Positions 12,400 through 51,694 of a DNA stretch of 64,000 nucleotides are shown here, in pieces (positions within the stretch are counted from its first letter, which is position 1; every line of letters begins with the position of its first letter). The notes under the pieces were generated by a model. The model did not search any database. It worked only from the letters and a program-made list of their open reading frames with translations, and was not told the DNA's origin. The translations under genes and the position numbers were made by a program. The stretch comes from Youxingia wuxianensis (lineage in GTDB: Bacteria; Bacillota; Clostridia; Oscillospirales; Ruminococcaceae), in assembly GCF_014385085.1 (NCBI RefSeq), contig NZ_JACRTD010000003.1, positions 1 to 64,000 on the forward strand, in the 5' to 3' direction.

Positions 12400-13278
12400 T
12401 CAGCGGCCTCCAGATGCATATTTTCCCATGTTGATGTCCAGCACTCCTCTGGGTGGCTGGATCAGAGCATCCTCATATTGGCACTTCCACTGGATTTCCC
12501 TGCTCATCTGACCATTCTCTACGCCGTCTATCGTTTCTCCATCCTGAATGGGGTTGTCATTGGCCAGAATATAGGACGCCACATTGTAGGCGTGGTTTAC
12601 CACCCAGTTGGGGTCCATATCGTGGAAGTGGTACTGGAGATCCGGCAGAAACAGGGTGCCCATGCCCACCGTGTCAATGAGCATATCCTCAGTGCCCTCA
12701 ATGTTGAAGAATCGGACATTGACGCCAAAGCGGATGAACCGATCCGGGCCCTCAATCTGATGGGAGCGCACATCCTCTGCCAGAAACAGCTTGCCGCAGT
12801 TCTGGAAATAGAATGCTTCGCATGAGGGGTACAGCTCCGCCAGAGCCTCCAAGAAGTTGGCGTCCAGGTTGGCCCGCTCCAGCGCCGGAAGCGCCGCAGC
12901 CAGCATATCGGTGGCCACCACCTGATACCGGCACTCCCGGAAAATCCGCTCTCGGTCTTCCTGGCAGTCCCACATCTGGCTCAGCAAAAAGGCATCAAAA
13001 CCTTTGCCCTTGAACTTGTCGCATTTCATCACCATCAGCTGCACCGGGCATTTGCCGTCCTGAAATTCCGCGATATGATCCAGGGCGGCAAAGCCGGCCA
13101 TTTTCTTATCATAACAGATGCACTCTGCTGATCCGATGTGTTTCCCCATTACGGCAGTCATTTTATCTTTGTCCGGCATGTCCACCGGCTCTTTGAACAG
13201 CATCTGAATGAGATAGGGGCCGCCGGGCTGGGGGCCCTTTTTGTCATCCAGGTTCTGCTGGAATACTTTATCGCTCAT
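12400..13278 (-). CDS. DUF4261-like immunity-type protein
   Basis: This 292-residue protein has the features of the DUF4261 family: an N-terminal GGPYLIQMLFKEPV strand, and a C-terminal NHAYNVASYILANDNPIQDG phrase like the DUF4261 segment of the giant protein at 20236. DUF4261 domains recur in poly-immunity loci. The start MSDKVFQQ at 13278 follows GGAGGTGGAGACCAA. It is the promoter-distal end of the array. Function is inferred from family and context only. Confidence 0.7.
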   Translation of the reverse strand: MSDKVFQQNLDDKKGPQPGGPYLIQMLFKEPVDMPDKDKMTAVMGKHIGSAECICYDKKMAGFAALDHIAEFQDGKCPVQLMVMKCDKFKGKGFDAFLLSQMWDCQEDRERIFRECRYQVVATDMLAAALPALERANLDANFLEALAELYPSCEAFYFQNCGKLFLAEDVRSHQIEGPDRFIRFGVNVRFFNIEGTEDMLIDTVGMGTLFLPDLQYHFHDMDPNWVVNHAYNVASYILANDNPIQDGETIDGVENGQMSREIQWKCQYEDALIQPPRGVLDINMGKYASGGR

Positions 13279-13306
13279 TTGGTCTCCACCTCCTGACAAA
13301 TCCTCT

Positions 13307-14086
13307 TTAATAATCAAGCAGGATGGGCACCTGCTGTTCCTCGGCAAACCGCATGGCCCGCCAGAACATGGAAAAGGCGAACTTGGCCAGGGATTGGGTA
13401 TCGTACTGGGTGTGTTCCGGGATGTCCGCTTTGCTGTACTGTCCGTCCGAGCCTATGGTGCCGTCCACCGGGTAGCCCTCGGTGTCGGCCCAATCGAGGA
13501 TGGTGTCCTCATCCGCCTGCCATGCCAGCTGGTTCAGCTTCTCCAGTTCCTTCCGCAGACCGCCCAGGGTGGCGATCATAGCCTGATCGTCGGTGGGCAG
13601 AGGGGCCTGAAAGAAGAAGGCATCCGACAGAGGCAGCCACCAAGTGGCCCCACGGAACAGGGACCAGACCCGCTCCTCATCTGATGCAAGGCGGGAGATC
13701 AGAGGATGCTCCCCAAAGTCCCAGTTTTTCTCCACAGTAGGCGGCACCGGCTCTCCATATGTATGGCAGGCGGCCACCAGCAGCATGGCGCCGAAGGCGT
13801 CCCAGTCCGGCTTGTCGGTGTAGTAGGGTTTCTCATTGTCCTCCGGCCAGGGGGCGTAGGGCTCCTGCCCCGGCTGGGCGATGGCAGCCAGAATCTGGTC
13901 CCGCCAGTTCTCTACCGCCGCCTGAACCTCCGCCGGGGACAGCTCCTCCCCATCATCGGCAGGCTCTCCATCTGGGGTAATCCGGTTGAAGGTATATCCA
14001 TTTTTCTCAGCCCACTGCTGGACAACGGTTTTCCAGTTGTGAGAGTAGTACCGGGTCAATGTTCCGGCGTAGATGTCAAGTCCCAT
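13307..14086 (-). CDS. Hypothetical protein, immunity array
   Basis: The 259-residue acidic protein starts MGLDIYAGTLTRYYSHNWKT, an opening I associate with uncharacterised clostridial proteins but no named domain. It is tryptophan-rich, has no signal peptide or membrane segment, and is preceded by AAAGGAGGCATCACT. The gene is followed 28 bases later by the DUF4261-like gene. A cytosolic immunity function is likely from context. Confidence 0.75.
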   Translation of the reverse strand: MGLDIYAGTLTRYYSHNWKTVVQQWAEKNGYTFNRITPDGEPADDGEELSPAEVQAAVENWRDQILAAIAQPGQEPYAPWPEDNEKPYYTDKPDWDAFGAMLLVAACHTYGEPVPPTVEKNWDFGEHPLISRLASDEERVWSLFRGATWWLPLSDAFFFQAPLPTDDQAMIATLGGLRKELEKLNQLAWQADEDTILDWADTEGYPVDGTIGSDGQYSKADIPEHTQYDTQSLAKFAFSMFWRAMRFAEEQQVPILLDY

Positions 14087-14110: not shown

Positions 14111-14416
14111 TCAAAGCCGTTCCAGGGTACAGTCGTGCCCGGAATGGTCGGTATCCAAAATGATTTCCACAATGGTGTCCATAGTCTCTTTCCCGAGATT
14201 ACGGACGCCTTTTTCAAAGGCCAGCCACTGGATGTGGATGGGTTGTCCATACTCATGCCGCCCAAAACCGCCCCGGAGAATATCGTTAAAGGCGTTCAGG
14301 TTCCGACCGATCTTCCAGTCCAAACCGAAGGTAAATACCCGCTCCACCTCGTCATAAAAACCGGCCATGTTAGAAAAGCGGCGGCCGTCGATGGTGAACA
14401 CCTCTCTCATATCCAT
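14111..14416 (-). CDS. Barstar-family ribonuclease inhibitor
   Basis: The 101-residue protein matches barstar: IDGRRFSNMAGFYDEVERVF, a GLDWKIGRNLNAFNDILRGG helix-strand and the following WLAFEKGVRNLG. Barstars bind and block barnase-type ribonucleases, which are common toxin domains of contact-dependent systems. No barnase gene is present, so it would protect against a foreign toxin or a chromosomal partner. The gene overlaps the stop of the upstream 117-residue gene. Confidence 0.88.
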   Translation of the reverse strand: MDMREVFTIDGRRFSNMAGFYDEVERVFTFGLDWKIGRNLNAFNDILRGGFGRHEYGQPIHIQWLAFEKGVRNLGKETMDTIVEIILDTDHSGHDCTLERL

Positions 14417-14760
14417 ATAAATGGCTCCTTTAAGTGGTATTTCTCCATGATCTTATTTTCCAAAGCTTCATAGGCATCCATATCCTCTGGCTGCGCCGGA
14501 ATGCCTTTTTCCCACCAGTAACCGTTCCCATAGTAGAAAGACATAGCCCAGTAATAAGGCAGGTCATGGCTGAATACCGCCACTCCCAAGGCATCGGCCA
14601 CTGGCGCTGCCAGCGGTGAGCGTTCCACTGTCTGGGAGGCTTCCGCATAGGAGATCCCCACCAGCTCCACCAGCAGATGCTTCACCAGTTCGCAGAAGCT
14701 GTACTGGTTGAATATGACCTGACCATCCTCATCTTTGAACACAAGTCCATCTCTCACCAT
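14407..14760 (-). CDS. Hypothetical small protein coupled to barstar
   Basis: This 117-residue acidic protein ends in KIMEKYHLKEPFIWI. It has a helical N-terminal half (CELVKHLLVELVGISYAEAS) and an aromatic centre (YYWAMSFYYGNGYWWEKG). Its 3' end overlaps the barstar start by ten bases, indicating coupled translation. No family is recognised; by position it is an immunity protein. Confidence 0.7.
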   Translation of the reverse strand: MVRDGLVFKDEDGQVIFNQYSFCELVKHLLVELVGISYAEASQTVERSPLAAPVADALGVAVFSHDLPYYWAMSFYYGNGYWWEKGIPAQPEDMDAYEALENKIMEKYHLKEPFIWI

Positions 14761-14778: not shown

Positions 14779-15987
14779 TTAATCCTCATCCCCGGCCTTG
14801 AAGTTGTAGATGGGGCGGATGATCTTCCTCACCTCCGCCGTGGGGCCGATGTTGTCCAGAATATCCTGCATCCCCTTGTAGGCCATGGGGCACTCATCCA
14901 AGGTAGCCTTGCTCACCGAGGTAGTGTAGACCTCTGCCATCTGCTTTTTGAATTCAGACACCGTGAATGACTGTTTAGCGTCCGCCCGGCTCATCAGGCG
15001 GCCGGCGCCGTGGGGAGCGGAGCAGTTCCAGTCCTCGTTACCCTTGCCCACACAGAGCAGGCTCCCGTCCCGCATATTGATGGGGATGAGCAGCTGCTCG
15101 CCCTCTTTGGCGGACACAGCCCCTTTCCGCAGGATCATGGCATCGGTGTCGATGTAGTTATGGATAGTGGTAAACTGTTCCTCCACATGGAGCTTCATGC
15201 CTTTGATGATCTCATCCATCATGGCCTGCCGGTTAAGCATGGCGAAGTGCTGGACGATCTTCATGTCGTGGATATACTGCTCAAACAATTCTCCGGACAC
15301 ATAAGCGAGAGCTTTGGGGATGTTAGTTTGCTTGATGTTTTTCAGTTTCTTCAGTTCTTTCTGGATTTCATTCTCCCGGCCCTCTGCCTTCATCTGAGCC
15401 ACCAGCGCCTGCAGGGAGGCATCGTCGGTACGGTTGAGCACCTTGTAACCCGCCTCCTGATAGTAGGCGGCCACCTCTACGCCCAGATGACGGCTGCCGG
15501 AGTGGACCACGATGTAGAGATTCCCTTCGTCGTCCTTGTCCACCTCAATGAAGTGGTTCCCGCCGCCCAGGGTGCCGATGCTCTTTTCTGCCCGGAGCAG
15601 ATCCACATGGCGGGCACAGCACAGTTCGCTCAAGTCGATCTGGCTGAGATAGCGGTGGGCCTTATCCCGGATGGAGAAGCCGGAGGGGATCTTCTCATAG
15701 ATCAACTTGTCCAGTTTCTGAAGCTCCAGCCGTCCCTCCCGGATGCGGGTGGTTTCCATGCCGCACCCAATGTCCACACCCACCAGATTGGGTACCACCT
15801 TATCGGTGATGGTCATCGTCGTGCCGATGGTGCAGCCCGCCCCGGCGTGGATGTCGGGCATGAGCCGGATACGGCTGCCCGCCGTAAATTCTTGGTTGCA
15901 CAGTTCCTGAACCTGTGCGATGGAGGCACTGTCCACCACATCGGTGAAGATCTTGGCCTGATTGTATTTTCCTTTAATTTCGATCAT
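14779..15987 (-). CDS. rtcB: RtcB-family RNA ligase
   Basis: The 402-residue protein carries the RtcB motif set: NLVGVDIGCGME (metal-binding Asp/Cys), LGGGNHFIEV, VVHSGSRHLG, and near the C-terminus NCSAPHGAGRLMSR with the histidine that is guanylylated. RtcB joins 2',3'-cyclic phosphate or 3'-phosphate ends to 5'-OH ends. It repairs tRNAs cut by anticodon nucleases and is a splicing ligase elsewhere. I use the ATG at 15987 after GCGAGGAAATT. Its place inside an immunity array suggests repair of RNA cleaved by toxins. Confidence 0.93.
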   Translation of the reverse strand: MIEIKGKYNQAKIFTDVVDSASIAQVQELCNQEFTAGSRIRLMPDIHAGAGCTIGTTMTITDKVVPNLVGVDIGCGMETTRIREGRLELQKLDKLIYEKIPSGFSIRDKAHRYLSQIDLSELCCARHVDLLRAEKSIGTLGGGNHFIEVDKDDEGNLYIVVHSGSRHLGVEVAAYYQEAGYKVLNRTDDASLQALVAQMKAEGRENEIQKELKKLKNIKQTNIPKALAYVSGELFEQYIHDMKIVQHFAMLNRQAMMDEIIKGMKLHVEEQFTTIHNYIDTDAMILRKGAVSAKEGEQLLIPINMRDGSLLCVGKGNEDWNCSAPHGAGRLMSRADAKQSFTVSEFKKQMAEVYTTSVSKATLDECPMAYKGMQDILDNIGPTAEVRKIIRPIYNFKAGDED

Positions 15988-16022: not shown

Positions 16023-16382
16023 TCAAGTCATTTCGTACAGCAGGGCCGCGTCGCCCTGCACCAGTTCCAGATGGGAGCGCAGCGTTTCAAGTCCGCTTTG
16101 TACCGCCTGGGTGGTCAGATCCCAGTCCGGGGCTATTTTAGCGGCCAGTTCCGGGAGGTCCTGCTCCCGCAGAGCTGCCAGCAGTTTAGACGCTAACTCT
16201 CCCTCCAGCAGAGCACAGTCCAGGGTGTCCTCCGTCTGGGGAGCAGGAAAACGGACATCCAGATCAAGCTCGCTCTCACACCAGTCCCAGATGGCCATAT
16301 AGACCGCGCCGGAGCAGTCGCCGTTGGACAGTTCCTGCCGCCGGCCGTCTTTGAGAAGATAAAAGGATGCGATCTGTGACAT
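16023..16382 (-). CDS. Hypothetical acidic protein (119 aa)
   Basis: The protein begins MSQIASFYLLKDGRRQELSN and ends QGDAALLYEMT. It is acidic with predicted helices and no membrane segment. AGGAGGAATTGCC precedes the start. It lies 35 bases upstream of rtcB. No family is recognised with confidence; size, charge and position fit an immunity protein. Confidence 0.72.
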   Translation of the reverse strand: MSQIASFYLLKDGRRQELSNGDCSGAVYMAIWDWCESELDLDVRFPAPQTEDTLDCALLEGELASKLLAALREQDLPELAAKIAPDWDLTTQAVQSGLETLRSHLELVQGDAALLYEMT

Positions 16383-16400: not shown

Positions 16401-16913
16401 TTATTCTTTATCTATCAGCCCTTCTGCCTGCATCCGGATCACATAAAAGGTCCGTACCCAATCCAGCTCCTGCTCCATGGATTTCCCCAAAGCCAGCAGT
16501 CGGCGCTTTCCCAGCCTGCGGTCCAGGAGGGCAAAGATGCGGACAAGAGGATTCTCGCTGACAAGGCTTTTCTCGATGCTCTGGTTGTCAAATTCATGAA
16601 ATGCCTGATAGAAAAAACCGTTGTCAAAACAGCCATCGTTCAGTGTTCCTTCATGGGCCAGCCGGAAAGGGGCCTTTGGATCGTCCTGGCCGATGCCCTC
16701 CCGCCGCAGGGCCTGATATCTGTTCCAGTAGTTCTGTTCATAGGCATAGTAGTTACTTCGCAGCACCTCCACGCCGTCCAGTCGAATGGCTGCCCGGCCT
16801 GTTTGGTCGTGGCTTTCCCAGTAGCTGGTGGCAAAATACTGGATGTGGCCCCGGAGCGCCGGGCACAGGTAGTCATTCTCCAGTTTGTTTCGGATTCCGC
16901 TCCAGGTTGACAT
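16401..16913 (-). CDS. SF0329-like family protein
   Basis: This 170-residue protein resembles the SF0329 family, recognised by SGIRNKLENDYLCPALRGHI and later HDQTGRAAIRLDGVEVLRSN. The C-terminal half is helical with LLDRRLGKRRL. Family function is unknown, and homologues occur in immunity gene clusters. The gene is preceded by AGGAAACAAGTACCT and followed 18 bases later by the next gene. Confidence 0.72.
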   Translation of the reverse strand: MSTWSGIRNKLENDYLCPALRGHIQYFATSYWESHDQTGRAAIRLDGVEVLRSNYYAYEQNYWNRYQALRREGIGQDDPKAPFRLAHEGTLNDGCFDNGFFYQAFHEFDNQSIEKSLVSENPLVRIFALLDRRLGKRRLLALGKSMEQELDWVRTFYVIRMQAEGLIDKE

Positions 16914-16987: not shown

Positions 16988-17476
16988 TTATCCGTTGAAT
17001 CCGCCGACTTCAATTTTATATTTGCAGTCGACCTCGATACAAACTAAATGTCCCATGAAATAGTCGGGTTCCGCATCCAAATCGATGTAAAAGCCAGTTT
17101 CACTTCCATTTACAAATATTGTTACATTGTTTACGAATAGTGCTTTTACAAACTCATCTTCTGAAATCTTCCCATCCGCTTCCAGCGTTCCATCTTCGAT
17201 CATTTCATTCACGACGTCTATGCAGTCATCGTTCTCATCCAAAAATGCTTGGATAATGGTATCTTTATGGTCATTGACCCAATTTACCTTTTCCAAAACG
17301 ATATCGCCTATATTTCCCTCTGTGCTCTGAAACTCAAGGAGAATTTTAGTCTTTCTATCCCATACGGTCCATTCTCCAACATGAAAGCCGAGTTTGCGAT
17401 CAAATACAAATTCCGTATTTCCCAAAATGATTTTATCCGGCATTTCGACCCTTTTCTTCTTTGAAAATAGTCCCAT
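16988..17476 (-). CDS. DUF2262-like protein (first of three)
   Basis: The 162-residue protein begins MGLFSKKKRVEMPDKIILGN and contains strands ending in PDYFMGHLVCIEVDCKYKIE, matching the C-terminal DUF2262 layout seen in the proteins at 41384 and 48329. I use the ATG at 17476 after GGAGGTATAT. The gene is visibly richer in A+T than its neighbours, which suggests separate acquisition. DUF2262 proteins are uncharacterised but frequent in immunity loci. Confidence 0.65.
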   Translation of the reverse strand: MGLFSKKKRVEMPDKIILGNTEFVFDRKLGFHVGEWTVWDRKTKILLEFQSTEGNIGDIVLEKVNWVNDHKDTIIQAFLDENDDCIDVVNEMIEDGTLEADGKISEDEFVKALFVNNVTIFVNGSETGFYIDLDAEPDYFMGHLVCIEVDCKYKIEVGGFNG

Positions 17477-17547
17477 ATATACCTCCATAACTTTACATGT
17501 ATTACTGTGCCCGCCAGTCTCGATAGCGTTTTTCATGGGCGATGTTT

Positions 17548-18297
17548 TCAGTGTTCATTGAGATACCTCGCCAGTTTCTTCTCCAGCAGTTCTGTCATAT
17601 CATTGCAGAGGCGCTTTACCTTGTCCTGCTCATGGGCGTAGTACCAGATGGTTTCCTCTCCGGGGCGGAGCAGGAGCTGGTCGCCGTCCGCTTCTTTCCA
17701 GAACTCGCCCAGCACACAATACCGCTCTCCATGGATGGTCAGATCAAACATCCCGGAAAGGGTAAGAATCACGCCAGTGGATACATTGATGCCTGCGGTC
17801 AGCAGGAAAAACTCCCGCACCTGGGACGGGAGCGTGAAGTCCAGCACGCTTTCTTGATCCCTGATCTGTTCCTCCGTGGCGGCAGGCTTGATCTCATCAG
17901 AGGTGTCCAGCACCTTTGCCAGCGCCTTGGAGAACTTGGGGTATCGGCCAAACAGCTCCGGGTGGCTGGCCTTGAATTCCTTTTGCTTTTCCCGCTGCAC
18001 TCGCTCCTGCTCCTTGCAGAAAGCGTCCAGTTCGGCCAGATACCGCTCCTGGTAGAGATTGCTGGCTTCAAATGCTAAGCCGCTCTTTTCCAGAATGGCG
18101 ATGGCTCCCTTTTGGCTGCCAAACACCGGGACCCACTGAAAACCGTGTCGGCAGGGCTTCAGTTTCAGAAATTCTCCCCGACTCAGCAGGGCTTCCAACT
18201 CCGTCTCATGTTCGTCCCACCAGTTCTGCCAGGTTTCAGGAGTTTCCCGCCCCTCGACCAAGTCCAGAAGTTTTTCAGTCAATGATTCTCTGTTCAT
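17548..18297 (-). CDS. SMI1/KNR4 (SUKH) family protein
   Basis: The C-terminal 130 residues fit the SUKH fold: AATEEQIRDQESVLDFTLPS, REFFLLTAGINVSTG, then LGEFWKEADGDQLLLRPGEE. The N-terminal 110 residues form a helical extension. SUKH proteins are the largest family of polymorphic-toxin immunity proteins. The chosen start (MNRESLT, 18297) has only a weak upstream GTGGACACC site, and an upstream start cannot be excluded. The pseudogene at 18323 lies just upstream. Confidence 0.78.
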   Translation of the reverse strand: MNRESLTEKLLDLVEGRETPETWQNWWDEHETELEALLSRGEFLKLKPCRHGFQWVPVFGSQKGAIAILEKSGLAFEASNLYQERYLAELDAFCKEQERVQREKQKEFKASHPELFGRYPKFSKALAKVLDTSDEIKPAATEEQIRDQESVLDFTLPSQVREFFLLTAGINVSTGVILTLSGMFDLTIHGERYCVLGEFWKEADGDQLLLRPGEETIWYYAHEQDKVKRLCNDMTELLEKKLARYLNEH

Positions 18298-18773: not shown

Positions 18774-19883
18774 TCAGAGGTCGCAGGAATAGATGCTCAT
18801 GGCCCCGTAATCGGTGTGCAGGACAAGCCCGCTTTGGGTAAAAGCAAAATTCACCTGCCGCACCACAAAGGGGTCATCAATGGTGGCCAACAGCTGGCCA
18901 CTGCTGGTATCCCACAATTCTATGGGGGAGTTGCCCCGCTCCTGCTGGACAGCCATCAGGCTGCCCCTTGTCCGCACCATACAGGTGTCTGAAACACTCA
19001 GCCCCTGCCGGACGGAAAACGGGAAGGGATTGTCCATCTCTTCTCCGGTCTGGGTCAGATAGAACTTCCCGCCCACCGAGAAGCACTGGTCATCCGGAGA
19101 GAAGAAGGGATGCCAGCCCGCATTGGGGATCACGACTTTTTGGCCGGACTTCAGATCGACCAGCACATACTCCCCCTCGGTGACGCGGTAAGCCGCTTTG
19201 CTCTGCCGGGGAGAGAGCATCCCGAAGCAGTAATAGGCGAAATTCGGGTCTTTTGACTTCTTGCATTTCACCGTTTCCCGCCACACCTCTGCGTTGCTGA
19301 CAAAGTCAAAGACGACGATCTCCTCTCCTGTGTACCACAAGGTCAGGCTAACGCTCTGGTCCAGCATAGTCCTCATGCTGTTTTTCTTGTTGGCAAAGGG
19401 CGTGATCTCATGGGTGCGGAGTGAAAACTGCTGGAGAAGATAGCTGTTGTTCAGCAGCAGGGTATCATTGGGGCAGAGGACCTGCTCATAGGTCATTCGC
19501 TTGGCGCCCAAGGAAACTGTTTCAAGGATCTCCCCGCTGCCATCGAAGTGATAAAGGATCTCGTCCTCGAAATCGCCGGCTATCCTTGTCAGGAAGAAGT
19601 CATCCCTCTCGGGAGATGTTGCCAGAGGCATGAAGCCGTTGCTGTCCTTTCCGACAAACCGATGGTACCGCGCCTGCCCAACAGCGGCGTCTGGATTCTG
19701 ATAAACAAAGCCCTTCCGCATCTGGCCCATCATGGCGCTGGACGCCTTGCTCCTGACCTGGAAGGTGGAGTCGCACAGGATCTCCTTGACCTTCCCGCCG
19801 TTCAGACAGGTTCGGATGGTATGGCCGTCAAGTTCAATTTGCCACTGCTTGTTTGTGGCGGGGTTGAGAAAGGTTTTTCCCAT
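18774..19883 (-). CDS. WGR-like N-terminal domain plus beta-propeller-like protein
   Basis: The ATG at 19883 (MGKTFLNPATNKQWQIELDG) follows AAGGAGGTGCC. Residues 1-75 resemble a WGR domain, ending in SSAMMGQMRKGFVYQN, although the W-G-R triplet itself is not kept. The rest (about 290 residues) has repeating strand units with WD40-like spacing (FDFVSNAEVW, VLVDLKSGQKVVIPNAGWHP, ELWDTSSGQLLATIDD). WGR domains bind nucleic acids or proteins in DNA-damage enzymes. Here it is probably an immunity or sensor protein; the function is not known. Confidence 0.7.
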   Translation of the reverse strand: MGKTFLNPATNKQWQIELDGHTIRTCLNGGKVKEILCDSTFQVRSKASSAMMGQMRKGFVYQNPDAAVGQARYHRFVGKDSNGFMPLATSPERDDFFLTRIAGDFEDEILYHFDGSGEILETVSLGAKRMTYEQVLCPNDTLLLNNSYLLQQFSLRTHEITPFANKKNSMRTMLDQSVSLTLWYTGEEIVVFDFVSNAEVWRETVKCKKSKDPNFAYYCFGMLSPRQSKAAYRVTEGEYVLVDLKSGQKVVIPNAGWHPFFSPDDQCFSVGGKFYLTQTGEEMDNPFPFSVRQGLSVSDTCMVRTRGSLMAVQQERGNSPIELWDTSSGQLLATIDDPFVVRQVNFAFTQSGLVLHTDYGAMSIYSCDL

Positions 19884-19905
19884 TGGCGCAGGCACCTCCT
19901 TTTCC

Positions 19906-34136: not shown

Positions 34137-34152
34137 TGTTTTTTCAACCTCC

Positions 34153-35652: not shown

Positions 35653-35886
35653 TCAGTTCTTTTCCAGATAGAATCCCCATACGCAGTTGGAGAACTCCCC
35701 GGCAGCAAAGCGGTGAATCTGCCCGTTGATCTCCACCTGCCAGACCTCGAAGGTATGGTCTTGGTGATAGATTGGGTCTTTGACTTTTACTCGCTTGCCG
35801 GTGGTTTTCCAGTTGTAGTCAAAGATGTTCACACCGAACAATTTACATTGACCGTCTGGGCCAAAGGTTTCATATTCCCAAGCCAT
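35653..35886 (-). CDS. Small hypothetical protein (77 aa)
   Basis: The protein MAWEYETFGPDGQCKLFGVN... is a compact all-beta candidate (KVKDPIYHQDHTFEVWQVEI) ending VWGFYLEKN. The ATG at 35886 follows GTGAGGCATCAC. It is AT-richer than the upstream LRR region. No family is recognised. Confidence 0.62.
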   Translation of the reverse strand: MAWEYETFGPDGQCKLFGVNIFDYNWKTTGKRVKVKDPIYHQDHTFEVWQVEINGQIHRFAAGEFSNCVWGFYLEKN

Positions 35887-40407: not shown

Positions 40408-40439
40408 GGTGGTTACCTCCATTACCAGATTTCAGACAA

Positions 40440-44572: not shown

Positions 44573-45715
44573 TCATTCATCCCCGAACCGCTCAGCAGCG
44601 TCTTTGTAAACAGTGATGCTCTTAGCCACCTTCTTTTTCTGGCTACGGATGCGGAAATAGTCCCACAGAACGCGCTTCAGTTCCGGGTTCTCCACCTTGA
44701 GGGGTAGCAGGCTGATGAACATTTCGTCGTAGCTTCCATATAGCACACCGCCCCGGTTGTAGGTCTGCCATGTCACCGTAGGTTTGCGGCCCTCCGGGTC
44801 CTTGGCCAAATCAAAGAGCCACCGCTCATCCAGATCCACATAGCGTTCAATCATAAACCTTGTGTCATAGGTTCCATAGCTATAATCCCCCCAGAAAATC
44901 AGAGCGATCATTCCATCCGGGCCCAGGCGTTCATAGGTCCAGTCTTCCGGATAACAGCGGTAATGGAGCATTCCCAGCGCATGGAACAAATAGCCTTTTT
45001 GCGGCGTATCCAGAAGGGGTGAATAGGTCTCGTACACCTGCTCCTTGGGCTGGGTGATGATCGCCTTCATAAAGACCGGCATCAGCCAGCTGCCGCCATA
45101 GCGTTCATTCAGCTCATCAGCCAATGCTTGCAGTCGCTCATCCGGGTTGCGGATCAGGGAGGCGGTAAGTACCACAGCGGGAATTTTCTCTTTTTCCTTG
45201 GGGGTGGCATCCCAAATGCGAAGCCCGTCCGTGATCCACCAGGAGGTGCAGTCATCATCGGAATAAACAGGCGCGCGTTTCAGCTGGGCGATCCGCTGGG
45301 TGTTCTCCGCCAGGAAGCGGTAGACCTCCAGCATTTTAGGCGAGGCTTTCCCCAACATCAAATGGAAACAGAAGTTCAGTTGTTCTATATTCAGTGGCTT
45401 TGTGTCCCCCTCGTCCAGCAGCTGGGAGAGAGTCTTCAGAATAACTGGGGCAATCTGCTCCGATACACAGTCGGAACAGGCATCCGACATGATATTGCTG
45501 CCCATCCATTTGCCCTTGACCAGCTTGGCCCACAGTGGGGCAGCAGGGGCATACTCCAGCTGCGCCAAAGCCTTTTGAGCAGCCGTTTTGCATTTGCCCT
45601 TTTCTGTATTCACAAGCTGGAACAGCAGTTCGCCGTTTGCTTCATCCTTGCCCAGCTCCAAAATGGCCTGTTCTCGCTTTACGCCCTTGGGAGGCAGTTG
45701 TTCCAAAGTCATCAT
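44573..45715 (-). CDS. HEAT-like repeat protein (380 aa)
   Basis: The N-terminal 150 residues are helical repeats (KGVKREQAILELGKDEANGE; KTAAQKALAQLEYAPAAPLW). The C-terminal half is mixed (RYVDLDERWLFDLAKDPEGR). The first 23 codons are duplicated at 46485-46553 on the other side of the 45829 gene, which indicates a recombination event at this junction. No family name is assigned. Confidence 0.72.
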   Translation of the reverse strand: MMTLEQLPPKGVKREQAILELGKDEANGELLFQLVNTEKGKCKTAAQKALAQLEYAPAAPLWAKLVKGKWMGSNIMSDACSDCVSEQIAPVILKTLSQLLDEGDTKPLNIEQLNFCFHLMLGKASPKMLEVYRFLAENTQRIAQLKRAPVYSDDDCTSWWITDGLRIWDATPKEKEKIPAVVLTASLIRNPDERLQALADELNERYGGSWLMPVFMKAIITQPKEQVYETYSPLLDTPQKGYLFHALGMLHYRCYPEDWTYERLGPDGMIALIFWGDYSYGTYDTRFMIERYVDLDERWLFDLAKDPEGRKPTVTWQTYNRGGVLYGSYDEMFISLLPLKVENPELKRVLWDYFRIRSQKKKVAKSITVYKDAAERFGDE

Positions 45716-45801
45716 TCATTTTTCTCCTATCCCACAATGGTGGTTTCCTTGATGGTCAGATTGTCGTAATTCATGGCGATCAGTTTCCCGGCGGTCTCCG
45801 G
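45646..45801. repeat. Diverged direct repeat, copy A
   Basis: About 156 bases are some 94% identical (by eye about ten differences) to 46484-46638. The segment spans the first codons of the HEAT-like gene, the intergenic gap and the last 22 codons of an allele of the 46564 gene (ending IKETTIVG). Copies A and B flank the 45829-46473 gene. Confidence 0.85.
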
Positions 45802-45828: not shown

Positions 45829-46473
45829 TTACTGCTTTTTCTGGCAAAACTCTTTCACATAATCGTATATGCTCTTTATCCCGCCATCGGTTACTGTATT
45901 AAATAGGCCATAAGGTTCGTTTTCCAGCTGCTTTTCTGCAAGGAGCATTGCCTGGCGGAAATTCCCTTCTGCGATTTCACACAGTACGACATTCAATCGT
46001 GCGGCCGGCGCAGTATCATGGAGAATCTCCGCTTTGAAGTCGGAGACTGTACTGCATCGGCTATGATGGTCTTGAATGGACTTGTTAAACCGACAAAACG
46101 CCTCATTCATGACCAAGGTTGCTGCGTCCACCGTGGGGACAGGTAGTTCCATTTCCTTGATGATATGAGCGGAAGGGGAATGTGCCGCTGTGATATGGAA
46201 ACTAAATGATTTCTTCCGGGCTACCTCACCCATTTCATATACATCCCAAAAGACATTGTCAATGACGCATGGCTTTGTGGAAACGACTGCTCTTATGGCA
46301 GTACCACGCCGGACAGGGGGCGCAGATAGAAACACTTCATATAAGAAATCACCCAGGACCTTATAGGCGCAGTCTGCAACCACTTTGAAGCCATGTTCTC
46401 CGGCAACTACTTTTAGGTTTTTGGAAATCATCGCGCTTAATTCCTTGACTGTCTTCTGCTCCTGCCGTGTCAT
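45829..46473 (-). CDS. Hypothetical protein (214 aa) between direct repeats
   Basis: The protein begins MTRQEQKTVKELSAMISKNL and ends IYDYVKEFCQKKQ. It contains TLVMNEAFCRFNKSIQDHHS and an alpha/beta N-terminal half. It is AT-richer than its neighbours and sits exactly between two diverged copies of the same junction, so it was probably brought in by recombination. Its ATG overlaps the TGA of a 27-codon gene fragment. No family is recognised. Confidence 0.7.
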   Translation of the reverse strand: MTRQEQKTVKELSAMISKNLKVVAGEHGFKVVADCAYKVLGDFLYEVFLSAPPVRRGTAIRAVVSTKPCVIDNVFWDVYEMGEVARKKSFSFHITAAHSPSAHIIKEMELPVPTVDAATLVMNEAFCRFNKSIQDHHSRCSTVSDFKAEILHDTAPAARLNVVLCEIAEGNFRQAMLLAEKQLENEPYGLFNTVTDGGIKSIYDYVKEFCQKKQ

Positions 46474-46553
46474 GCTATTTCCACCTTGCCCAGCTCCAAA
46501 ATGGCATGTTCTCGCTTTACGCCCTTGGGAGGCAGTTGTTCCAAAGTCATCAT
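46470..46553 (-). pseudogene. Truncated 5' fragment of the HEAT-like gene
   Basis: The frame MMTLEQLPPKGVKREHAILE then LGKVEIA and TGA repeats the first 23 codons of the gene at 44573-45715 with one amino-acid change (Q to H), then diverges. Its stop overlaps the start of the 45829-46473 gene (ATGA). It is a relic of the recombination that placed that gene here and may now serve as a translational lead-in. Confidence 0.75.
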
Positions 46554-46638
46554 TCTTTTTCTCCTATCCCACAATGGTGGTCTCCTTGACGACCAGATTG
46601 TCGTAATCCATGGCGATCAGTTTCCCGGCGGCTTCTGG
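46484..46638. repeat. Diverged direct repeat, copy B
   Basis: This is the partner of 45646-45801. It contains the intact 3' end of the 46564 gene (VVKETTIVG) and the truncated start of the HEAT-like gene. The differences from copy A include several synonymous changes, so the two copies come from different alleles rather than a fresh duplication. Confidence 0.85.
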
Positions 46639-47151
46639 GGTACACATGAACCAGGTGCTCACGCCCCAGGCATCCATCCTTGTGACGGTGAAGAAGTCGG
46701 TTTCGGCGGGAGAGGGATTTCTGGCGTCAAGATAGCGGTCGGAATAGAGGTAGACCAGATCCACCTCCCGGTCCGGTAGCCACTTGGCCCGGCGCGCACG
46801 CGGTTTACCATTTTTCAGAGTCTTTTCTCTGGGGTTCTCAAACCACGCCAGTTCCTTGATCTTCAGACCGGTGAAGGTATCCATGAGCCGCTGGGCAATC
46901 TCCCGGTGGGTAAATACTCCGCAGTCCCAGGAGCCCATCAGCCATGTCTGTATAAAGTCGCCCACCTTGCTGCCAGGAGCAGGCGGCCCATAGACGCTCT
47001 CGTCCGCCCACATGACCTCCATCTTTTCACATTGATCTGGCCGGGGACAGGACTTCTTGTTGCCGTATCGGTACATGATATTCACATAACCGAAGTCCTT
47101 GCCGGTTCGGTCATGACCAACGGCTTCCACTTTATAGGCAGTTATGGACAT
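46564..47151 (-). CDS. Hypothetical protein (195 aa)
   Basis: The ATG at 47151 (MSITAYKVEAVGHDRTGKDF) follows GAGGTGGAACTGCA. The protein has NIMYRYGNKKSCPRPDQCEK, WLPDREVDLVYLYSDRYLDA and a C-terminal AMDYDNLVVKETTIVG. It looks like a cytosolic beta-rich protein. The last 22 codons have a second, diverged copy at 45729-45801, proof that alleles of this gene have recombined here. Confidence 0.68.
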   Translation of the reverse strand: MSITAYKVEAVGHDRTGKDFGYVNIMYRYGNKKSCPRPDQCEKMEVMWADESVYGPPAPGSKVGDFIQTWLMGSWDCGVFTHREIAQRLMDTFTGLKIKELAWFENPREKTLKNGKPRARRAKWLPDREVDLVYLYSDRYLDARNPSPAETDFFTVTRMDAWGVSTWFMCTPEAAGKLIAMDYDNLVVKETTIVG

Positions 47152-47537
47152 TGCAGTTCCACCTCCTGAGCCAGTACAAATCCGCACAGCCCAAGGGAAG
47201 AGTCGATGACAAATACCCGGATGTGCTCCCGTTCCATGCGCTTCCGCAGTTCCTCGATGCTGCAGCAGGCGGGAAAGCCGTAAGAGATGGTCCCGCCCAG
47301 CAGGTCTTTGTACTGCTGGAAAAACCCGTCCACGGTGATCTCGTCCATGCCGAAGAGGATGTTGTCCTGGATCACATTTTCAAACCAGTGGGCCAGCAGG
47401 CCGGTGAAGCGAACGGATACTTTCTCTCCGGTCTCGGACTGGGTATCCATGTGCAGTGTGTGGGCTTCAAAGTCAGCGCAGTAGCGAAGGACTCTGTTGT
47501 CGTGCAGATTGTCAAAAGATTGAATTACCATACTCAT
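47142..47537 (-). CDS. Hypothetical immunity-type protein (131 aa)
   Basis: The protein contains FDNLHDNRVLRYCADFEAHT, KVSVRFTGLLAHWFENVIQD and ISYGFPACCSIEELRKRMER. The first phrase is reminiscent of small immunity proteins with a conserved HD pair, but I cannot name the family. It overlaps the gene on each side by a few bases, indicating coupled translation. Confidence 0.68.
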   Translation of the reverse strand: MSMVIQSFDNLHDNRVLRYCADFEAHTLHMDTQSETGEKVSVRFTGLLAHWFENVIQDNILFGMDEITVDGFFQQYKDLLGGTISYGFPACCSIEELRKRMEREHIRVFVIDSSLGLCGFVLAQEVELQCP

Positions 47538-48073
47538 GCCAGCTCTGCGTCCAAAATCTGGACTTGTTTTCCTTCCTCGTTCACATAGTAAAGGGCGATA
47601 TAGTCGATGCCGTCCCGCTTGATCTGCTCCCAGGGCATCCGCCCGCCGCTGATCAGCTCCACGGTATCGTTCTCGTCCGGCTCGAAGTCCTCTTTCTCAT
47701 CCTCATAGTCAATGCTGTACCCCAGCTCCAGCACCAGCTTGGAGGCGGGGATCTCATACCGCTTGAGGGGACGGTGTTCCAGCTCGGATGGATCATGTTC
47801 TTCGCAGAACATATTGTCGTAGCCATGCCGCCCGCCATCAAAGATCACGAACTCCTCGCCGCTGGCCGGGTCACGGGCCGCCACCAGTCCGGGAGCCTCG
47901 TCGCCATCCACAATATAGGATTGGGGCTCTCCCTTCACCGTGAGCAAATCTCCGTAATACCAGACCTCCAGCAGTTCACTGCCGGTGGAAGAACACAATG
48001 TCACGGTGGGCAGGCGTTTCTGTGCATACTCCTTCACATGGCCGGTGAGCCAGGTAGGATATTTTTCACTCAT
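47534..48073 (-). CDS. Hypothetical acidic protein (179 aa)
   Basis: The protein begins MSEKYPTWLTGHVKEYAQKR and contains SYIVDGDEAPGLVAARDPAS and a strongly acidic stretch (YEDEKEDFEPDENDTVEL). AGGAGGACGAACG precedes the ATG. It ends four bases into the next gene. No family is recognised. Confidence 0.68.
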   Translation of the reverse strand: MSEKYPTWLTGHVKEYAQKRLPTVTLCSSTGSELLEVWYYGDLLTVKGEPQSYIVDGDEAPGLVAARDPASGEEFVIFDGGRHGYDNMFCEEHDPSELEHRPLKRYEIPASKLVLELGYSIDYEDEKEDFEPDENDTVELISGGRMPWEQIKRDGIDYIALYYVNEEGKQVQILDAELA

Positions 48074-48085
48074 CGTTCGTCCTCC

Positions 48086-48310
48086 TTACAGCACCCAGGA
48101 CATGATGCTGGTCACAATCAGCACGATTCCCAGTAGGAAGAAGATCACCCGCCTGGAGCCGCGGCCATAGCGGTGAGAGTCCGGCTTGCCGGTGGGGTCA
48201 CAGAGCCAGTTCCAGTTCATGATGGCCCCAATCAGCAGGACAGCGCCGATGATCAGGGTTACCCAGTTCCAATGTTCCTGTAAAAAAACCGTGATCTGCT
48301 CGCTGTTCAT
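48086..48310 (-). CDS. Imm17-like small membrane protein
   Basis: The 74-residue protein has two hydrophobic helices (WVTLIIGAVLLIGAIMNWNW at about 16-36 and VIFFLLGIVLIVTSIMSWVL at 55-74) joined by a basic loop, the layout of Imm17. Imm17 proteins protect from toxins acting at the membrane or cell surface. AGAGAGGAGGAAACC precedes the ATG. It is the only clear membrane protein of the array. Confidence 0.78.
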   Translation of the reverse strand: MNSEQITVFLQEHWNWVTLIIGAVLLIGAIMNWNWLCDPTGKPDSHRYGRGSRRVIFFLLGIVLIVTSIMSWVL

Positions 48311-48328
48311 TTAGGTTTCCTCCTCTCT

Positions 48329-49171
48329 TTATCCCTGTATATCAGCGTCAACGGGGCCTTTTTTCAGCGTTCCATTCACCGTGACCACATGGCCCCAGAA
48401 CATATCGTCGTCCTCATACCAGGCGGTAAAACGCCCACCCGGAGATACTGTAAACTCAGTGAGCAGGATACGCCGGGCGAACTCATCCTCGGTGATGGGG
48501 TCTTTCTCCGGGTCCCGGTTAGTCTGGTCATTGTCCGCCAGCCATTCGTTGGCCTGAGCAGTGAGCTTCTGGGCAGCCATCGCTCGCAGGGACTTATCCC
48601 AGGTTTCCTGGTCTGCCACCAGTTTCTTCATCACATTGGTGACACGGGGCCAGGACGCTTTCTTTTCAATCTCCACATCCAACGAGATCCGGACTTCTTT
48701 TCCCATCCACTTACAGGTCCCCTCGAATATGCTCATCTCACGATCCAGCGTGAGGGTTCCCAGCACTTCGTCCTCCAGAAGAATGGGCTTTGTGTATTCC
48801 GCCCAAATCTCCTCCAGTGCCGGACAGGGTACGCCTTCCTCCAGTACCTCCGTGACATACCACTGAGGTTCGTAGAGGGCATCACCTTTCCAGCCGCGGG
48901 CTTTGATCCGGTAGATCTGGCCCTTGGTAAACCGCTTGGAATAGTCGCCGGCATCCCGTTCCTTGTCCGTCAGCGGCCAGCTCAGGTAGCATCGACCGGA
49001 GATCGCCTGTCCGGTCTGGACATCCGCCATGGCGAGGGCATGGGTATGCGCCGCCCAGTAGGTATCCAGAAAGGTTTTGTCCGCGCTGACACCGTCCTGA
49101 ATCAGTACCAGTTTTTCCTCATCTTCTGGGGCGTACAGGGCAATAAAGTCCTTGACCGTTCTCTTTTTCAT
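48329..49171 (-). CDS. DUF2262 protein (third of three)
   Basis: The 280-residue protein starts MKKRTVKDFIALYAPEDEEK (ATG at 49171 after AAGGAGAACGCC). A DUF2262 domain occupies the C-terminal half (LGTLTLDREMSIFEGTCKWM; FTAWYEDDDMFWGHVVTVNG). It is a full-length paralogue of the 41384 protein, about 7 kb downstream. Retention of two diverged copies fits selection for different toxin partners. Confidence 0.82.
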   Translation of the reverse strand: MKKRTVKDFIALYAPEDEEKLVLIQDGVSADKTFLDTYWAAHTHALAMADVQTGQAISGRCYLSWPLTDKERDAGDYSKRFTKGQIYRIKARGWKGDALYEPQWYVTEVLEEGVPCPALEEIWAEYTKPILLEDEVLGTLTLDREMSIFEGTCKWMGKEVRISLDVEIEKKASWPRVTNVMKKLVADQETWDKSLRAMAAQKLTAQANEWLADNDQTNRDPEKDPITEDEFARRILLTEFTVSPGGRFTAWYEDDDMFWGHVVTVNGTLKKGPVDADIQG

Positions 49172-49181
49172 GGCGTTCTCC

Positions 49182-50564
49182 TTACGCAAATACCTGCTGG
49201 TATTTCTCTTTCAGTTCCTTGGGCGCTGTCTTGATGACCTTGCTGCCGCCGTTTTCAGAGGCTGTGCCCCAGATGGCCCAGAGCAGGCTCTGCCAAGCGA
49301 TGGCCCGGAATTTCGGGTCCTTGTCCTCTTCCGGCAGGAGATAAGCGGAAAAGCGGCGTTTGACTGTCAGCAGCGCATCCAGGCTTTCCGCATTGGCAAT
49401 CAAGCTGCGGAATTCCTTGGCAGGCTTCAGCCACTGCATAGACAATGCGCCCCGTACCAATACGCCCAGTGTCCATGTTTGGAAACCAAACTTCCGGATC
49501 AAGGCATGAAGGAATTTCTCTTGCAGGGAGGAGTGCTCGTCGTCGCAGAGATCCAAATACTCCGCCACCAGCGGCGCCCACTGTTCTCCCTCCAGTCCCA
49601 GAGCGAACACAGCAAAAGAGCCGGGCATGGCGCAGGCTTCATCCGCAAGGTTTTGGTACCACTCATACTCCCGCATAGCCAGACGAGTGTATCGCTCTAT
49701 AGCCGGATGCAGATCGGGGTGCTGCACAGCGCAGGCAAAGAGCTGATTGATGCCCTTCTTGGGCAAGCCGGGAATGGGCAGATAGATTTTCTGCTTTCCT
49801 CTGAATTCCACCGAGTAACTGCGGGGGAATTCCTCCTGCTCCAGCACCGCACACAGGTAGTCCAAGATCTCGGCATAGCACTCCTCGGTGGAGTCCTTGG
49901 CGGTGATTCGGATGGCAGCAAACGCATCATTGGCCGATGCGGTGAAATGCTCCGTCTTACGCTGCTGGATGTCCTTTGGTAATTTGCCGCTGCCGGCTGT
50001 TTTCAGTTGCTTCACCATATCTGGGCGAAGCTGGGAGACCAGGCCGAGGATGTGTTCGGTGGTGAGGGATTCAAAACTCTGCCCGTACACGGTATGGCAG
50101 ATCGCCACATAGCAGGCAAAGCGCAGCAGACCTTCGTCCACATCCTCCGCTCGCAATTCCGGCAGTACTGTGCAGGGTGGAAAGACGGTAAAGCCATCAT
50201 CCCGCTCTCCCACAAGGAAGAACCGCTCCTGCACCTGCTTTTCTATGTACTTCTCCAACTTATAGCGAATTTCTTGCCAGCCCACCAGCCGTCGCATGGC
50301 GTCGCAGAGAGAGACAGCATCCTCACAGGGAAATCCTTTCAACGGCAGCCTGGTCAGATACCGCTCCAGCAGCTGATCAGGGAGAAATGGCGTCCCGTTG
50401 TGGTTTCGCACCACGGTCGGGTAGGCGGAGTGATTTTCACGAGCGGTGCCGTTCAGCACATCCTGAATGCAGAGATCCGCCTCCGCCAGCACCTCCGGGG
50501 AAGTGTCCGGCTTGTGGATCAGATAGTAGCGGTTATGCACGCCATCACGCTTTGGCAAACTCAT
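49182..50564 (-). CDS. DUF6138-like protein (460 aa)
   Basis: The C-terminal half has the phrases I associate with DUF6138: GKQKIYLPIPGLPKKGINQL, YTRLAMREYEWYQNLADEAC, FAVFALGLEGEQWAPLVAEY and LDLCDDEHSSLQEKF. The N-terminal half is helical and unassigned. AGAGGAGACCTTGCC precedes the ATG. Function is unknown; the family occurs in immunity islands. Confidence 0.75.
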   Translation of the reverse strand: MSLPKRDGVHNRYYLIHKPDTSPEVLAEADLCIQDVLNGTARENHSAYPTVVRNHNGTPFLPDQLLERYLTRLPLKGFPCEDAVSLCDAMRRLVGWQEIRYKLEKYIEKQVQERFFLVGERDDGFTVFPPCTVLPELRAEDVDEGLLRFACYVAICHTVYGQSFESLTTEHILGLVSQLRPDMVKQLKTAGSGKLPKDIQQRKTEHFTASANDAFAAIRITAKDSTEECYAEILDYLCAVLEQEEFPRSYSVEFRGKQKIYLPIPGLPKKGINQLFACAVQHPDLHPAIERYTRLAMREYEWYQNLADEACAMPGSFAVFALGLEGEQWAPLVAEYLDLCDDEHSSLQEKFLHALIRKFGFQTWTLGVLVRGALSMQWLKPAKEFRSLIANAESLDALLTVKRRFSAYLLPEEDKDPKFRAIAWQSLLWAIWGTASENGGSKVIKTAPKELKEKYQQVFA

Positions 50565-50578
50565 GGCAAGGTCTCCTC

Positions 50579-51694
50579 TCAGGTCTGCTGATGCTGCATG
50601 GATACGATATGGCAGTCCGGGCAGAATTCCACATAGAGCGTGCCCTCCGCACAGTCAAACACCGTATCCCACTGGATCTGCGCCAGATATTTCATAGGTT
50701 TCCCGCAGTGGGGGCAGGTCGTATATTCCGCGTCCTGTACCCAGTTGGCAAAGCCACCCACCGTGTTCACATCCTGGCAGGCCGCACCGTAAAACAGGGG
50801 CACAGGCGCTTCGCCCAGCACAAAGGGATTTTCCGTGAGGGCCTTGTAGTCCTCGGGACTGACATAGCAATCCGTCTTCTCCGCGCCGTCAAATAACTCA
50901 GAGGGAAAGACCTCCACGCCGCCATCCAGGGTAAACCGGTTGAAGGCGGGGCCTTTGAGGAATCCCACGCAGCTGGGGCAGCAGGTGGCAGTCAGGACAC
51001 CATCCAGCCCCAGGAACCGGAGCCGCTCATCCCGGCCATCCAGCACCAGCATGTCCACCATGCGTCCGCCACAGTGGGGGCATGTGTCCTCCCGTGCCCG
51101 GCCAATGCGGACGGGAGATTTCTCGCCGGTGGTTCCTTTGACCATAGGATAGCAGGTATCGAAGTTGAGTTGGATTTTCTGGCCCTCCTTGTCGAAGGTC
51201 CAGCCGCCGATCTGTGCATAGCTGGATGGGTCCACATAGAGGCCCTTGCGCCAGGGCCGGGGATTTCGCTCCAGCTCCAGCAGCGTCTCCATTGCCTTGT
51301 CATCTCCCTGCATAGCAAGGCAACTCATCAGGTTAGAAGCCGCGCTGGAATATTCCGCAGACAACAGCGCATGAATCAGACCATCCCGCACATCGGCGGG
51401 AGCGTGATAATAGATTTCACACGGCCAGAACACCTCTGCGGCCAGTGCCGCCCGCTGAATCTCCGGGGTGATGGCATCATGGTACCCCAGCAGCTGCCAG
51501 AAGTCGGTGAACTCCGGGTCCTCCATATCAGCCAGCCGCTGGATGTTCTGAATCAGGTTTCTTTGCTTTTCTGTGATTTGTTCCGGTGTCCAAGCAAGAG
51601 CAGCCTTCCGCTCCTGTTCAGATTTGCATTTCCAGCACAATCCCTCATAGCCCAAGGGTGTCCCACAGCCGGGGCAGGTGTACTTCAGGCTCAT
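50579..51694 (-). CDS. DUF1963-like zinc-ribbon protein, first gene of the array
   Basis: The 371-residue protein has an N-terminal zinc ribbon (YTCPGCGTPLGYEGLCWKCK), a helical region, a second ribbon (TCPHCGGRMVD) and a C-terminal DUF1963/YwqG-like part (VGGFANWVQDAEYTTCPHCG, YLAQIQ, CPDCHIVSMQHQQT). Its ATG overlaps the TGA of the 64-codon leader ORF, so its translation is coupled to leader translation. GGAAAGGAGTCAAAGAAT precedes the ATG. Confidence 0.8.
   Translation of the reverse strand: MSLKYTCPGCGTPLGYEGLCWKCKSEQERKAALAWTPEQITEKQRNLIQNIQRLADMEDPEFTDFWQLLGYHDAITPEIQRAALAAEVFWPCEIYYHAPADVRDGLIHALLSAEYSSAASNLMSCLAMQGDDKAMETLLELERNPRPWRKGLYVDPSSYAQIGGWTFDKEGQKIQLNFDTCYPMVKGTTGEKSPVRIGRAREDTCPHCGGRMVDMLVLDGRDERLRFLGLDGVLTATCCPSCVGFLKGPAFNRFTLDGGVEVFPSELFDGAEKTDCYVSPEDYKALTENPFVLGEAPVPLFYGAACQDVNTVGGFANWVQDAEYTTCPHCGKPMKYLAQIQWDTVFDCAEGTLYVEFCPDCHIVSMQHQQT

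Follow-up and report, generated by a model that had tools for sequence, protein, structure and literature searches.

A putative conjugative element of Youxingia wuxianensis carries a 47-gene, one-strand array of immunity-type genes preceded by a structured leader RNA

Gene content of the array and its leader RNA

We analyzed the first 64,000 nucleotides of contig NZ_JACRTD010000003.1 of Youxingia wuxianensis (assembly GCF_014385085.1), referred to below as the window. Between positions 12400 and 51694 it contains an array of 47 genes, all on the minus strand and all with open frames, which is carried by a putative conjugative element. The block is 95.7% coding, and a gene caller trained on its codon usage recovered 46 of the 47 genes. 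Intergenic gaps have a median of 16.5 bp, and 38 of the 46 are at most 40 bp long; six neighboring pairs overlap, and three are more than 100 bp apart (113, 262, and 476 bp). An earlier interpretation (the sequence-only reading) had described a 39-kb array of about 50 immunity-type genes in a single orientation, with gaps mostly under 40 bases or overlaps, and this layout was confirmed. Inside the block, promoter-like and terminator-like sites occur at roughly the frequency expected from shuffled sequence, which is consistent with a single transcript without proving one.

Pfam domains above cut-off were found in 25 of the 47 products. They include every family named in the sequence-only reading: barstar, SUKH-1, SUKH-3, Imm17, Imm51, DUF2262 (three products), DUF4241, DUF4259, DUF4261, DUF5713, DKNYY, and ankyrin. 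Seven products belong to a named or classic immunity family (barstar, SUKH-1, SUKH-3, Imm17, Imm51, Imm-NTF2, and a 2,072-aa protein). As had been claimed, no toxin or HINT domain was detected among the 47 products by Pfam. NCBIfam matched 21 families over the 47 products, and ankyrin models named for Dot/Icm effectors matched one member, presumably the ankyrin protein. Ten proteins without Pfam match gave no NCBIfam match, and the barstar product had no match among PDB sequences. For the 45 array genes tested, the overall median dN/dS was 0.14 and the per-gene median was below 0.3 in 44; by this measure the tested genes are under purifying selection.

Four features had been absent from the sequence-only reading, namely the 2,072-aa protein, the enzymes RtcB, KptA, and NADAR, a fixed gene order with clean junctions, and a leader RNA. 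The 2,072-aa product is a single chain with seven Pfam domains (Table 1), that is, a polyimmunity protein with several immunity domains in one chain. It is modular: the SUKH domain lies within residues 952–1146, and many relatives align with the parts on either side of this segment but are shorter by roughly its length. The RtcB, KptA/Tpt1, and NADAR products all align to solved relatives in the PDB, and we take the conserved motifs in these alignments to be the sites of the catalytic residues. No PrfH was recognized among the 47 products. The description of the genes as immunity-type held for the many immunity families but needs correction for RtcB, KptA/Tpt1, and NADAR, which are members of enzyme families for repair or reversal rather than toxin binders.

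Immediately upstream of the first gene lies a 132-nt leader composed of hairpin 1, a conserved CUUUUC stretch, and a terminator hairpin, with 31 nt (U-tract counted) between the terminator hairpin and the first ATG. We aligned 24 of 31 leader sequences, some of them close copies, after excluding five duplicates and two loci without a leader directly upstream (L166 and L169). In this alignment 92.7% of cells were paired and 17 of 28 pairs had changed on both sides; 29 covarying cells were counted versus 9.1 in shuffles (0 of 500), and slid structures paired in 39–54%. The CUUUUC stretch can pair with the ribosome-binding region, but this pairing varies little, and covariation is a weak test of it. 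An Rfam search of positions 48000–54100 at E values up to 1 gave no match to the leader and two weak microRNA matches on other bases. Further upstream, 224–272 nt before the first gene, 16 of the 29 distinct sequences compared have a perfect extended -10 element (TGnTATAAT).

To relate the leader to the arrays, we used a covariance model (R1). One strong match each was obtained in the window, in the related arrays C25 and C21, and in a Subdoligranulum plasmid record (OY725843.1), besides four others at about 31 bits or less. Where array loci had short flanks, the leader was found in 16 of 67. In 15 carrier genomes, hand-chosen from 44, the model gave 25 strong matches (59 bits or more) and six at 34 bits or less; for 23 of the 25 strong matches, a polyimmunity gene follows on the same strand at a distance of 1–25 kb. 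The first array gene, which had been used for collecting leaders, has no match in eight of these genomes, which therefore serve as an independent test: all 11 strong leader matches in them precede arrays. Among 196 genomes of the class, leader matches (four) occurred solely in the nearest genome. A scan of 350 family genomes gave 29 matches in 19 genomes, with a recognized array gene within 1.5 kb in 21 cases (two weakly).

In 13 of 14 distinct main-lineage sequences, an open frame spans the 45 nt that precede hairpin 1. A leader peptide was nevertheless rejected: pN/pS in this frame was 0.72, compared with 0.95 and 0.75 for the others, and in diverged leaders the RNA fold persists while the peptide does not. 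Translation-coupled attenuation is accordingly no more than a lead.

Table 1. Features of the array, its leader and the surrounding element (window positions)
Feature	Position	Strand	Evidence
Whole proposed operon, leader RNA and 47 genes	12400–51826	-	Gene calls, gaps
Predicted extended -10 promoter TGGTATAAT, without good -35	51943–51951	-	Recurs upstream in relatives
Structured leader RNA	51695–51826	-	Fold z -4.39; covariation; model R1 150 bits; no Rfam family
Leader hairpin 1	51791–51812	-	Both-sided change in 6/7 pairs; 81.4% of cells paired
Leader hairpin 2, intrinsic terminator	51725–51767	-	96.3% of cells paired
Array gene 1, zinc-ribbon-like, 371 aa	50579–51694	-	No Pfam above cut-off; orthologue in 29/44 carrier genomes
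DUF6138 protein	49182–50564	-	Pfam
DUF7021 + DUF2262 protein	48329–49171	-	Pfam
Imm17 protein	48086–48310	-	Pfam
Array protein, no family	47534–48073	-	
Array protein, no family	47142–47531	-	
Array protein, no family	46564–47151	-	
Array protein, no family, between ~160-bp direct repeats	45829–46473	-	Missing from relative C25
Array protein, no family, 380 aa	44573–45715	-	
Ankyrin-repeat protein	43467–44546	-	Pfam
Array protein, no family	42842–43462	-	
Array protein, no family	42238–42828	-	
DUF7021 + DUF2262 protein	41384–42223	-	Pfam
Array protein, no family	40867–41370	-	
Array protein, no family	40440–40850	-	
SUKH-3 immunity protein	39853–40422	-	Pfam
DKNYY protein	38855–39856	-	Pfam
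DUF5713 protein	38515–38841	-	Pfam
DUF6572 protein	38162–38509	-	Pfam, 27.1 bits vs cut-off 27
DUF4241 protein	37394–38125	-	Pfam
Imm-NTF2 immunity protein	36420–37379	-	Pfam
DUF4259 protein	35931–36386	-	Pfam
Small array protein, no family	35653–35886	-	
Array protein, no family, 493 aa	34153–35634	-	
Array protein, no family	33711–34172	-	
Zinc-ribbon-like protein	33048–33647	-	Matches below cut-offs
NADAR protein, predicted ADP-ribosyl glycohydrolase	32168–33037	-	Pfam 2e-51; PDB 8bau match
C_GCAxxG_C_C protein	31722–32171	-	Pfam
Imm51 + DUF6881 protein	30985–31722	-	Pfam
Array protein, no family	30282–30968	-	
DUF6966 protein	29857–30267	-	Pfam
Array protein, no family	28877–29845	-	Relative fused to KptA in P0019
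Array protein, no family	28311–28859	-	
KptA/Tpt1 RNA 2'-phosphotransferase family protein	27724–28293	-	Pfam 6.4e-46; PDB 7kw8 6.9e-48
Array protein, weak TPR below cut-off	26846–27694	-	
DUF6547 protein	26470–26820	-	Pfam
2,072-aa polyimmunity protein	20236–26454	-	Imm68 (aa 2–158), Imm33 (188–273), SUKH (992–1130), DUF4261 (1327–1402), SUFU (1464–1630), DUF7832 (1653–1766), DUF4253 (1965–2072)
Array protein, no family	18774–19973	-	
SUKH-1 immunity protein	17548–18297	-	Pfam
DUF2262 protein	16988–17488	-	Pfam
SF0329 family protein	16401–16913	-	Pfam
Array protein, no family	16023–16382	-	
RtcB RNA-ligase family protein	14779–15987	-	Pfam 6.9e-63; RtcB chains in PDB
Array protein, no family	14407–14760	-	
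Barstar	14111–14416	-	Pfam
Array protein, no family	13307–14086	-	Weak model match to YfbM
DUF4261 protein, final array gene	12400–13278	-	Pfam
WYL-domain regulator beyond array	11387–12343	-	Family in 17/78 sources
Serine recombinase genes	3314–7393	-	3314–4972 and 5804–7393 scanned; ORF 4979–5803 between, outside scan
Conjugation genes	54092–59945	-	TraG coupling protein, Toprim/DUF3991, MobL relaxase with Sel1 repeats

Gene order, exchange and mobility of related arrays

Related arrays were collected from one-per-species genomes with the 2,072-aa protein as query, which gave 74 distinct loci (from the best 80 of 97 places). Together with two contigs of the nearest genome, the Subdoligranulum plasmid record, and the window, they make up 78 sources, including three duplicates. 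Their hosts, many of them gut Clostridia, comprise Faecalibacterium, Flavonifractor, Hungatella, Enterocloster, Anaerotruncus, and Holdemania, among others. Clusters present in at least four sources were counted as array families; after 13 of 95 (flank, backbone, or minus-strand clusters) had been excluded by judgement, 82 families remained, 43 of them with a member in the window. Sources hold a median of 16.5 families, a value constrained by the flanks, which reach 10 kb at most, and the subset differs from source to source. In line with the proposal that the array is the variable cargo of related elements, the window holds 43 families, C25 49, C21 18, and OY725843.1 27.

The order of these families was compared after removal of the duplicate places (L059, L067, and L039) and then of identical gene strings. 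The majority order was kept in 9,973 of 10,068 pair observations versus 63% with shuffled gene strings, and agreement rose to 99.4% once a rearranged array from an archaeal metagenome-assembled genome (MAG) was dropped. Given this near-invariant relative order, each family can be regarded as a fixed slot that is either filled or empty. At least one of RtcB, KptA, and NADAR is present in 32 of 75 de-duplicated sources; among sources spanning the respective slot (duplicates included), NADAR is found in 32 of 62, KptA in 12 of 65, and RtcB in 6 of 46. UPF0167 is the commonest array family without a member in the window, occurring in 41 of 75 sources, and CbrC, which belongs to it, is protective against colicin E2 (PMC3599342).

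Junctions were compared in arrays that differ by one to three genes. Homology stops a median of 3 bp past the upstream stop codon; it extends beyond the following start codon in 8% of the 48 junction types that have an insert, versus 82% of the 34 that have none. Direct repeats as general cassette borders were rejected: over the 48 junction types the overlap had a median of -6.5 bp, so that repeats fail to explain most gain and loss. The exception is the gene at 45829–46473, which is flanked by ~160-bp direct repeats of a junction (45641–45801 and 46479–46638). The relative C25 has no such gene and a single copy of the repeat, which would fit a cassette gained, or able to be lost, through recombination.

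The rearranged array (L072) is located on a 243-kb contig (G037:C5) of a Methanomassiliicoccaceae MAG. This contig also encodes an archaeal-type topoisomerase I, above its cut-off, and its first 60 kb gave no match to the leader model. A transfer from bacteria to archaea is possible, in which case the array package would also have reached a methanogen; a chimeric assembly is possible as well.

The mobility genes of the window are serine recombinases, a TraG/VirD4 coupling protein (54092–55903), and a MobL relaxase (57801–59945), which carries a run of Sel1 repeats at its C-terminus; a Toprim/DUF3991 protein and an M23 peptidase also belong to the element. Relaxase, coupling protein, and recombinase, the set expected of an integrative and conjugative element, are all present, in agreement with the serine-recombinase conjugative element of the sequence-only reading. 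The window stops before the position of VirB4, which in the 93%-identical relative G001:C25 lies just past the window's counterpart. Of 25 genomes examined, 14 have arrays (15 in all) with a coupling protein on the same strand, 22–51 kb upstream; the remaining arrays of those 25 genomes have no coupling protein on that strand and side within this distance (distances were worked out by hand). A related element in the same genome as C25 (G001:C26) has none of the 47 array genes within the 80 kb examined, and the array is therefore optional cargo. The C21 array is without a TraG of this type nearby, but ~5–8 kb past its end there are genes for an integrase-like protein and for a MobL-like relaxase (41% identity).

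Array DNA is identical over 25,514 of 25,514 bp between Enterocloster alcoholdehydrogenati (Lachnospirales) and Emergencia timonensis (Peptostreptococcales), and 21.3 kb of array DNA with a mean identity of 97.4% is found in both Holdemania massiliensis (Erysipelotrichia) and Enterocloster citroniae (Clostridia). Judged from these alignments, array DNA is shared across orders and classes. Together with the variable cargo this supports the idea of a mobile pan-immunity island. On this evidence, orders and classes of gut Bacillota can apparently pass on protection from bacterial toxins in a single large, transferable package.

Carrier genomes were searched for two toxin families, LXG and RHS. 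LXG was found above cut-off in none of 25 genomes, with a sub-threshold match in one, and RHS repeats were found in five of 25, on a different contig from the leader-bearing arrays or more than 1 Mb away. In relatives, toxin genes interleaved with the array would speak against orphan immunity. We scanned 54 of 64 representatives of the relatives' array genes with Pfam (ten presumed flank genes were excluded); among the matches listed (25 of 33 families), one representative matched AbiEii. This is presumably the gene L031:82–696, which precedes a relaxase and the leader and lies outside the array. In genome G003, a short distant relative of the 2,072-aa protein lies ~75 kb from an RHS gene.

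Comparison with known systems

Among known systems, the array is best classed with the heterogeneous polyimmunity loci of Zhang et al. (2012; PMC3482391), as a very large and mobile form that is probably gated by attenuation. These loci are a nearer precedent than the AID systems invoked by the sequence-only reading. The array and these loci both have unrelated immunity genes in tandem, in one direction and with short gaps, no interruption by toxins, strain variation, recombinases nearby, and fused multi-immunity proteins. What appears new is the size (47 genes versus 19 in the Bacteroides example), the conjugative context with spread across classes, one slot order throughout, the enzymes RtcB, KptA, and NADAR, and the conserved leader RNA. 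The words RtcB, KptA, and NADAR are absent from the first 300,000 of the 357,715 characters of that paper. The known loci have, e.g., XerC/D recombinases nearby, whereas the recombinase here is of the serine type, ~5 kb past the array end; they usually occur once per genome, though this is not required, while several carriers here have two or more.

The array is not a Bacteroidales rAID system. With AID-1/rAID (PMC12247911) it shares co-oriented orphan immunity genes, SUKH, mobility, and freedom from toxins. However, rAID systems have a tyrosine recombinase, whereas the two scanned recombinases here are of the Resolvase/Recombinase type, and a Pfam scan of the YpsA-like neighbor of the array head revealed no tyrosine recombinase. 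They have a GC content below 41% and occur in Bacteroidales, compared with 54.6% for the array, in other taxa. Their orphan immunity genes are reported to be under positive rather than purifying selection. Conserved intergenic motifs are also described for them; here, a short-word count of the 30 nt upstream of the genes gave top 8-mers that are all Shine-Dalgarno-like.

Three other systems resemble parts of the array. Strings of esaG, tsaI, and tipC, directed against type VII secretion system toxins (PMC9484751), are likewise multi-copy immunity genes in Firmicutes, and esaG is gained and lost by recombination; those strings are paralogues of one family recombining via shared blocks, in contrast to the unrelated families and clean single-gene junctions here. 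RtcB2-PrfH and the NADAR/PARG reversal enzymes (PMC9223846, PMC11125620, PMC11833690) also protect from toxins by RNA religation or ADP-ribose removal, but occur alone or in small modules instead of as cassettes within a polyimmunity array. Very long operons with LoaP leaders (PMC12691694) are likewise preceded by a hairpin and then an intrinsic terminator; their leaders have a UNCG hairpin, whereas inspection of the leader alignment, without a motif search, indicated variable hairpin 1 loops. In titles and abstract openings of mostly open-access papers we found no account of arrays of this kind that include these enzymes or are preceded by this leader. The array unites two lines that are separate in the cited papers, binding immunity proteins and enzymes of RNA repair or ADP-ribose removal.

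Proposed function and alternative explanations

We consider it probable that the block is one antidote operon that protects new hosts from many toxins delivered by rivals, is gated by RNA, and spreads with conjugative elements; the defence role, the single transcript, and the regulated read-through are all what we infer from sequence. Transcription would start at the extended -10 near 51951. As the 31 nt between terminator and ATG are too short for another promoter, the transcript would have to pass the terminator at 51725–51767, and expression would be gated by conditional read-through. The binding proteins would then neutralize delivered toxins, while RtcB, KptA, and NADAR might undo the damage by re-ligating cleaved RNA, processing 2'-phosphate/ADP-ribose ends, and stripping ADP-ribose. 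Single genes would be gained and lost, probably by homologous recombination between arrays with shared flanking slots, and the arrays would travel with conjugative elements.

Several observations weigh against this interpretation. No family was found for 22 of the 47 products, so that they count as immunity genes by association only, and numerous other matches are DUFs. The circular 75.8-kb relative OY725843.1 was typed as non-mobilizable. Two of the 25 strong leader matches have no large polyimmunity gene downstream (one precedes a remnant, the other nothing recognized), and 8 of the 29 matches in the family scan have no recognized array gene within 1.5 kb (L194, L205, L208, L213, L215, L218, L220, and L221). 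L205 lies at a contig end; the other seven may precede unrecognized array genes or remnants. KptA and NADAR also occur outside arrays: in 150 family genomes, arrays of this type hold 2 of 8 KptA places and 4 of 12 NADAR places, one more NADAR place being a diverged immunity-like run. A tie of these two enzymes to arrays was therefore rejected. Finally, reversal enzymes can be narrow. RtcB2-PrfH is protective against colicin E3 but gave no protection from tRNA-targeting toxins (PMC9223846), and some NADAR proteins have antitoxin activity while NADARs of other contexts failed against DarT1 (PMC11125620).

The terminator ahead of the operon could also be a mere insulator against upstream read-through, with constitutive, leaky, and ungated expression, which we regard as possible if rather doubtful. 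Terminators often shield cargo genes, and no alternative antiterminator fold was shown here. An insulator, however, would not need hairpin 1, which covaries too; moreover, a promoter has no room downstream of the terminator, and the conserved extended -10 found in over half of the distinct upstream sequences precedes it.

An extension of the antidote operon, put forward tentatively as something we would not expect to hold, is a whole class of mobile pan-antidote operons with ~82 fixed-order slots, in which one new leader RNA, sensing toxin damage such as stalled translation, would turn on binders and reversal enzymes jointly. If true, this would amount to an inducible and transferable immune response aimed at other bacteria, not phages. 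The shared leader RNA provides a sequence handle for finding arrays and a route to testing whether, and by what signal, immunity is switched on.

The array might instead be an establishment kit that neutralizes the recipient's own toxin-antitoxin or abortive-infection toxins when the element enters. It does accompany conjugation genes, RtcB, KptA, and NADAR act on RNA ends and ADP-ribose that intracellular toxins also produce, and one product, presumably the NADAR member, weakly matches the NCBIfam model "NADAR family anti-phage protein" (4.4e-11). We consider this unlikely, as SUKH, SUFU, barstar, Imm33, Imm51, Imm68, and Imm-NTF2 are immunity families of polymorphic toxins (PMC3482391). An anti-phage defence island is very improbable: PADLOC gave three candidate models with one array protein each, but these have no description, the 47 proteins had no other PADLOC match at E 0.001, and immunity families are common. 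That the array is a decaying gene store without present function, as a remnant array in G002 (~1583594–1584877) might suggest, can practically be dismissed in view of the low dN/dS, the 47 open frames, and the identical array DNA in distant hosts.

Some further loci with these enzymes were observed. At L127 (genome G117) a NADAR gene lies within an apparent pyrimidine-synthesis operon, whose gene names we presumptively assigned from their sequences; despite its one-strand layout, this locus was rejected as an array because it looks like a pyrimidine-synthesis region. In genome G132, L126 is a diverged immunity-like run on one strand with 41–70% relatives of array proteins, including NADAR, and at L108, outside arrays of this type, KptA (9986, plus strand) and an RtcB-like gene (11991, minus strand; 79% identical to the array type) lie ~1.5 kb apart. 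In P0019, KptA is joined in frame, in one chain, to a relative of the 28877–29845 protein.

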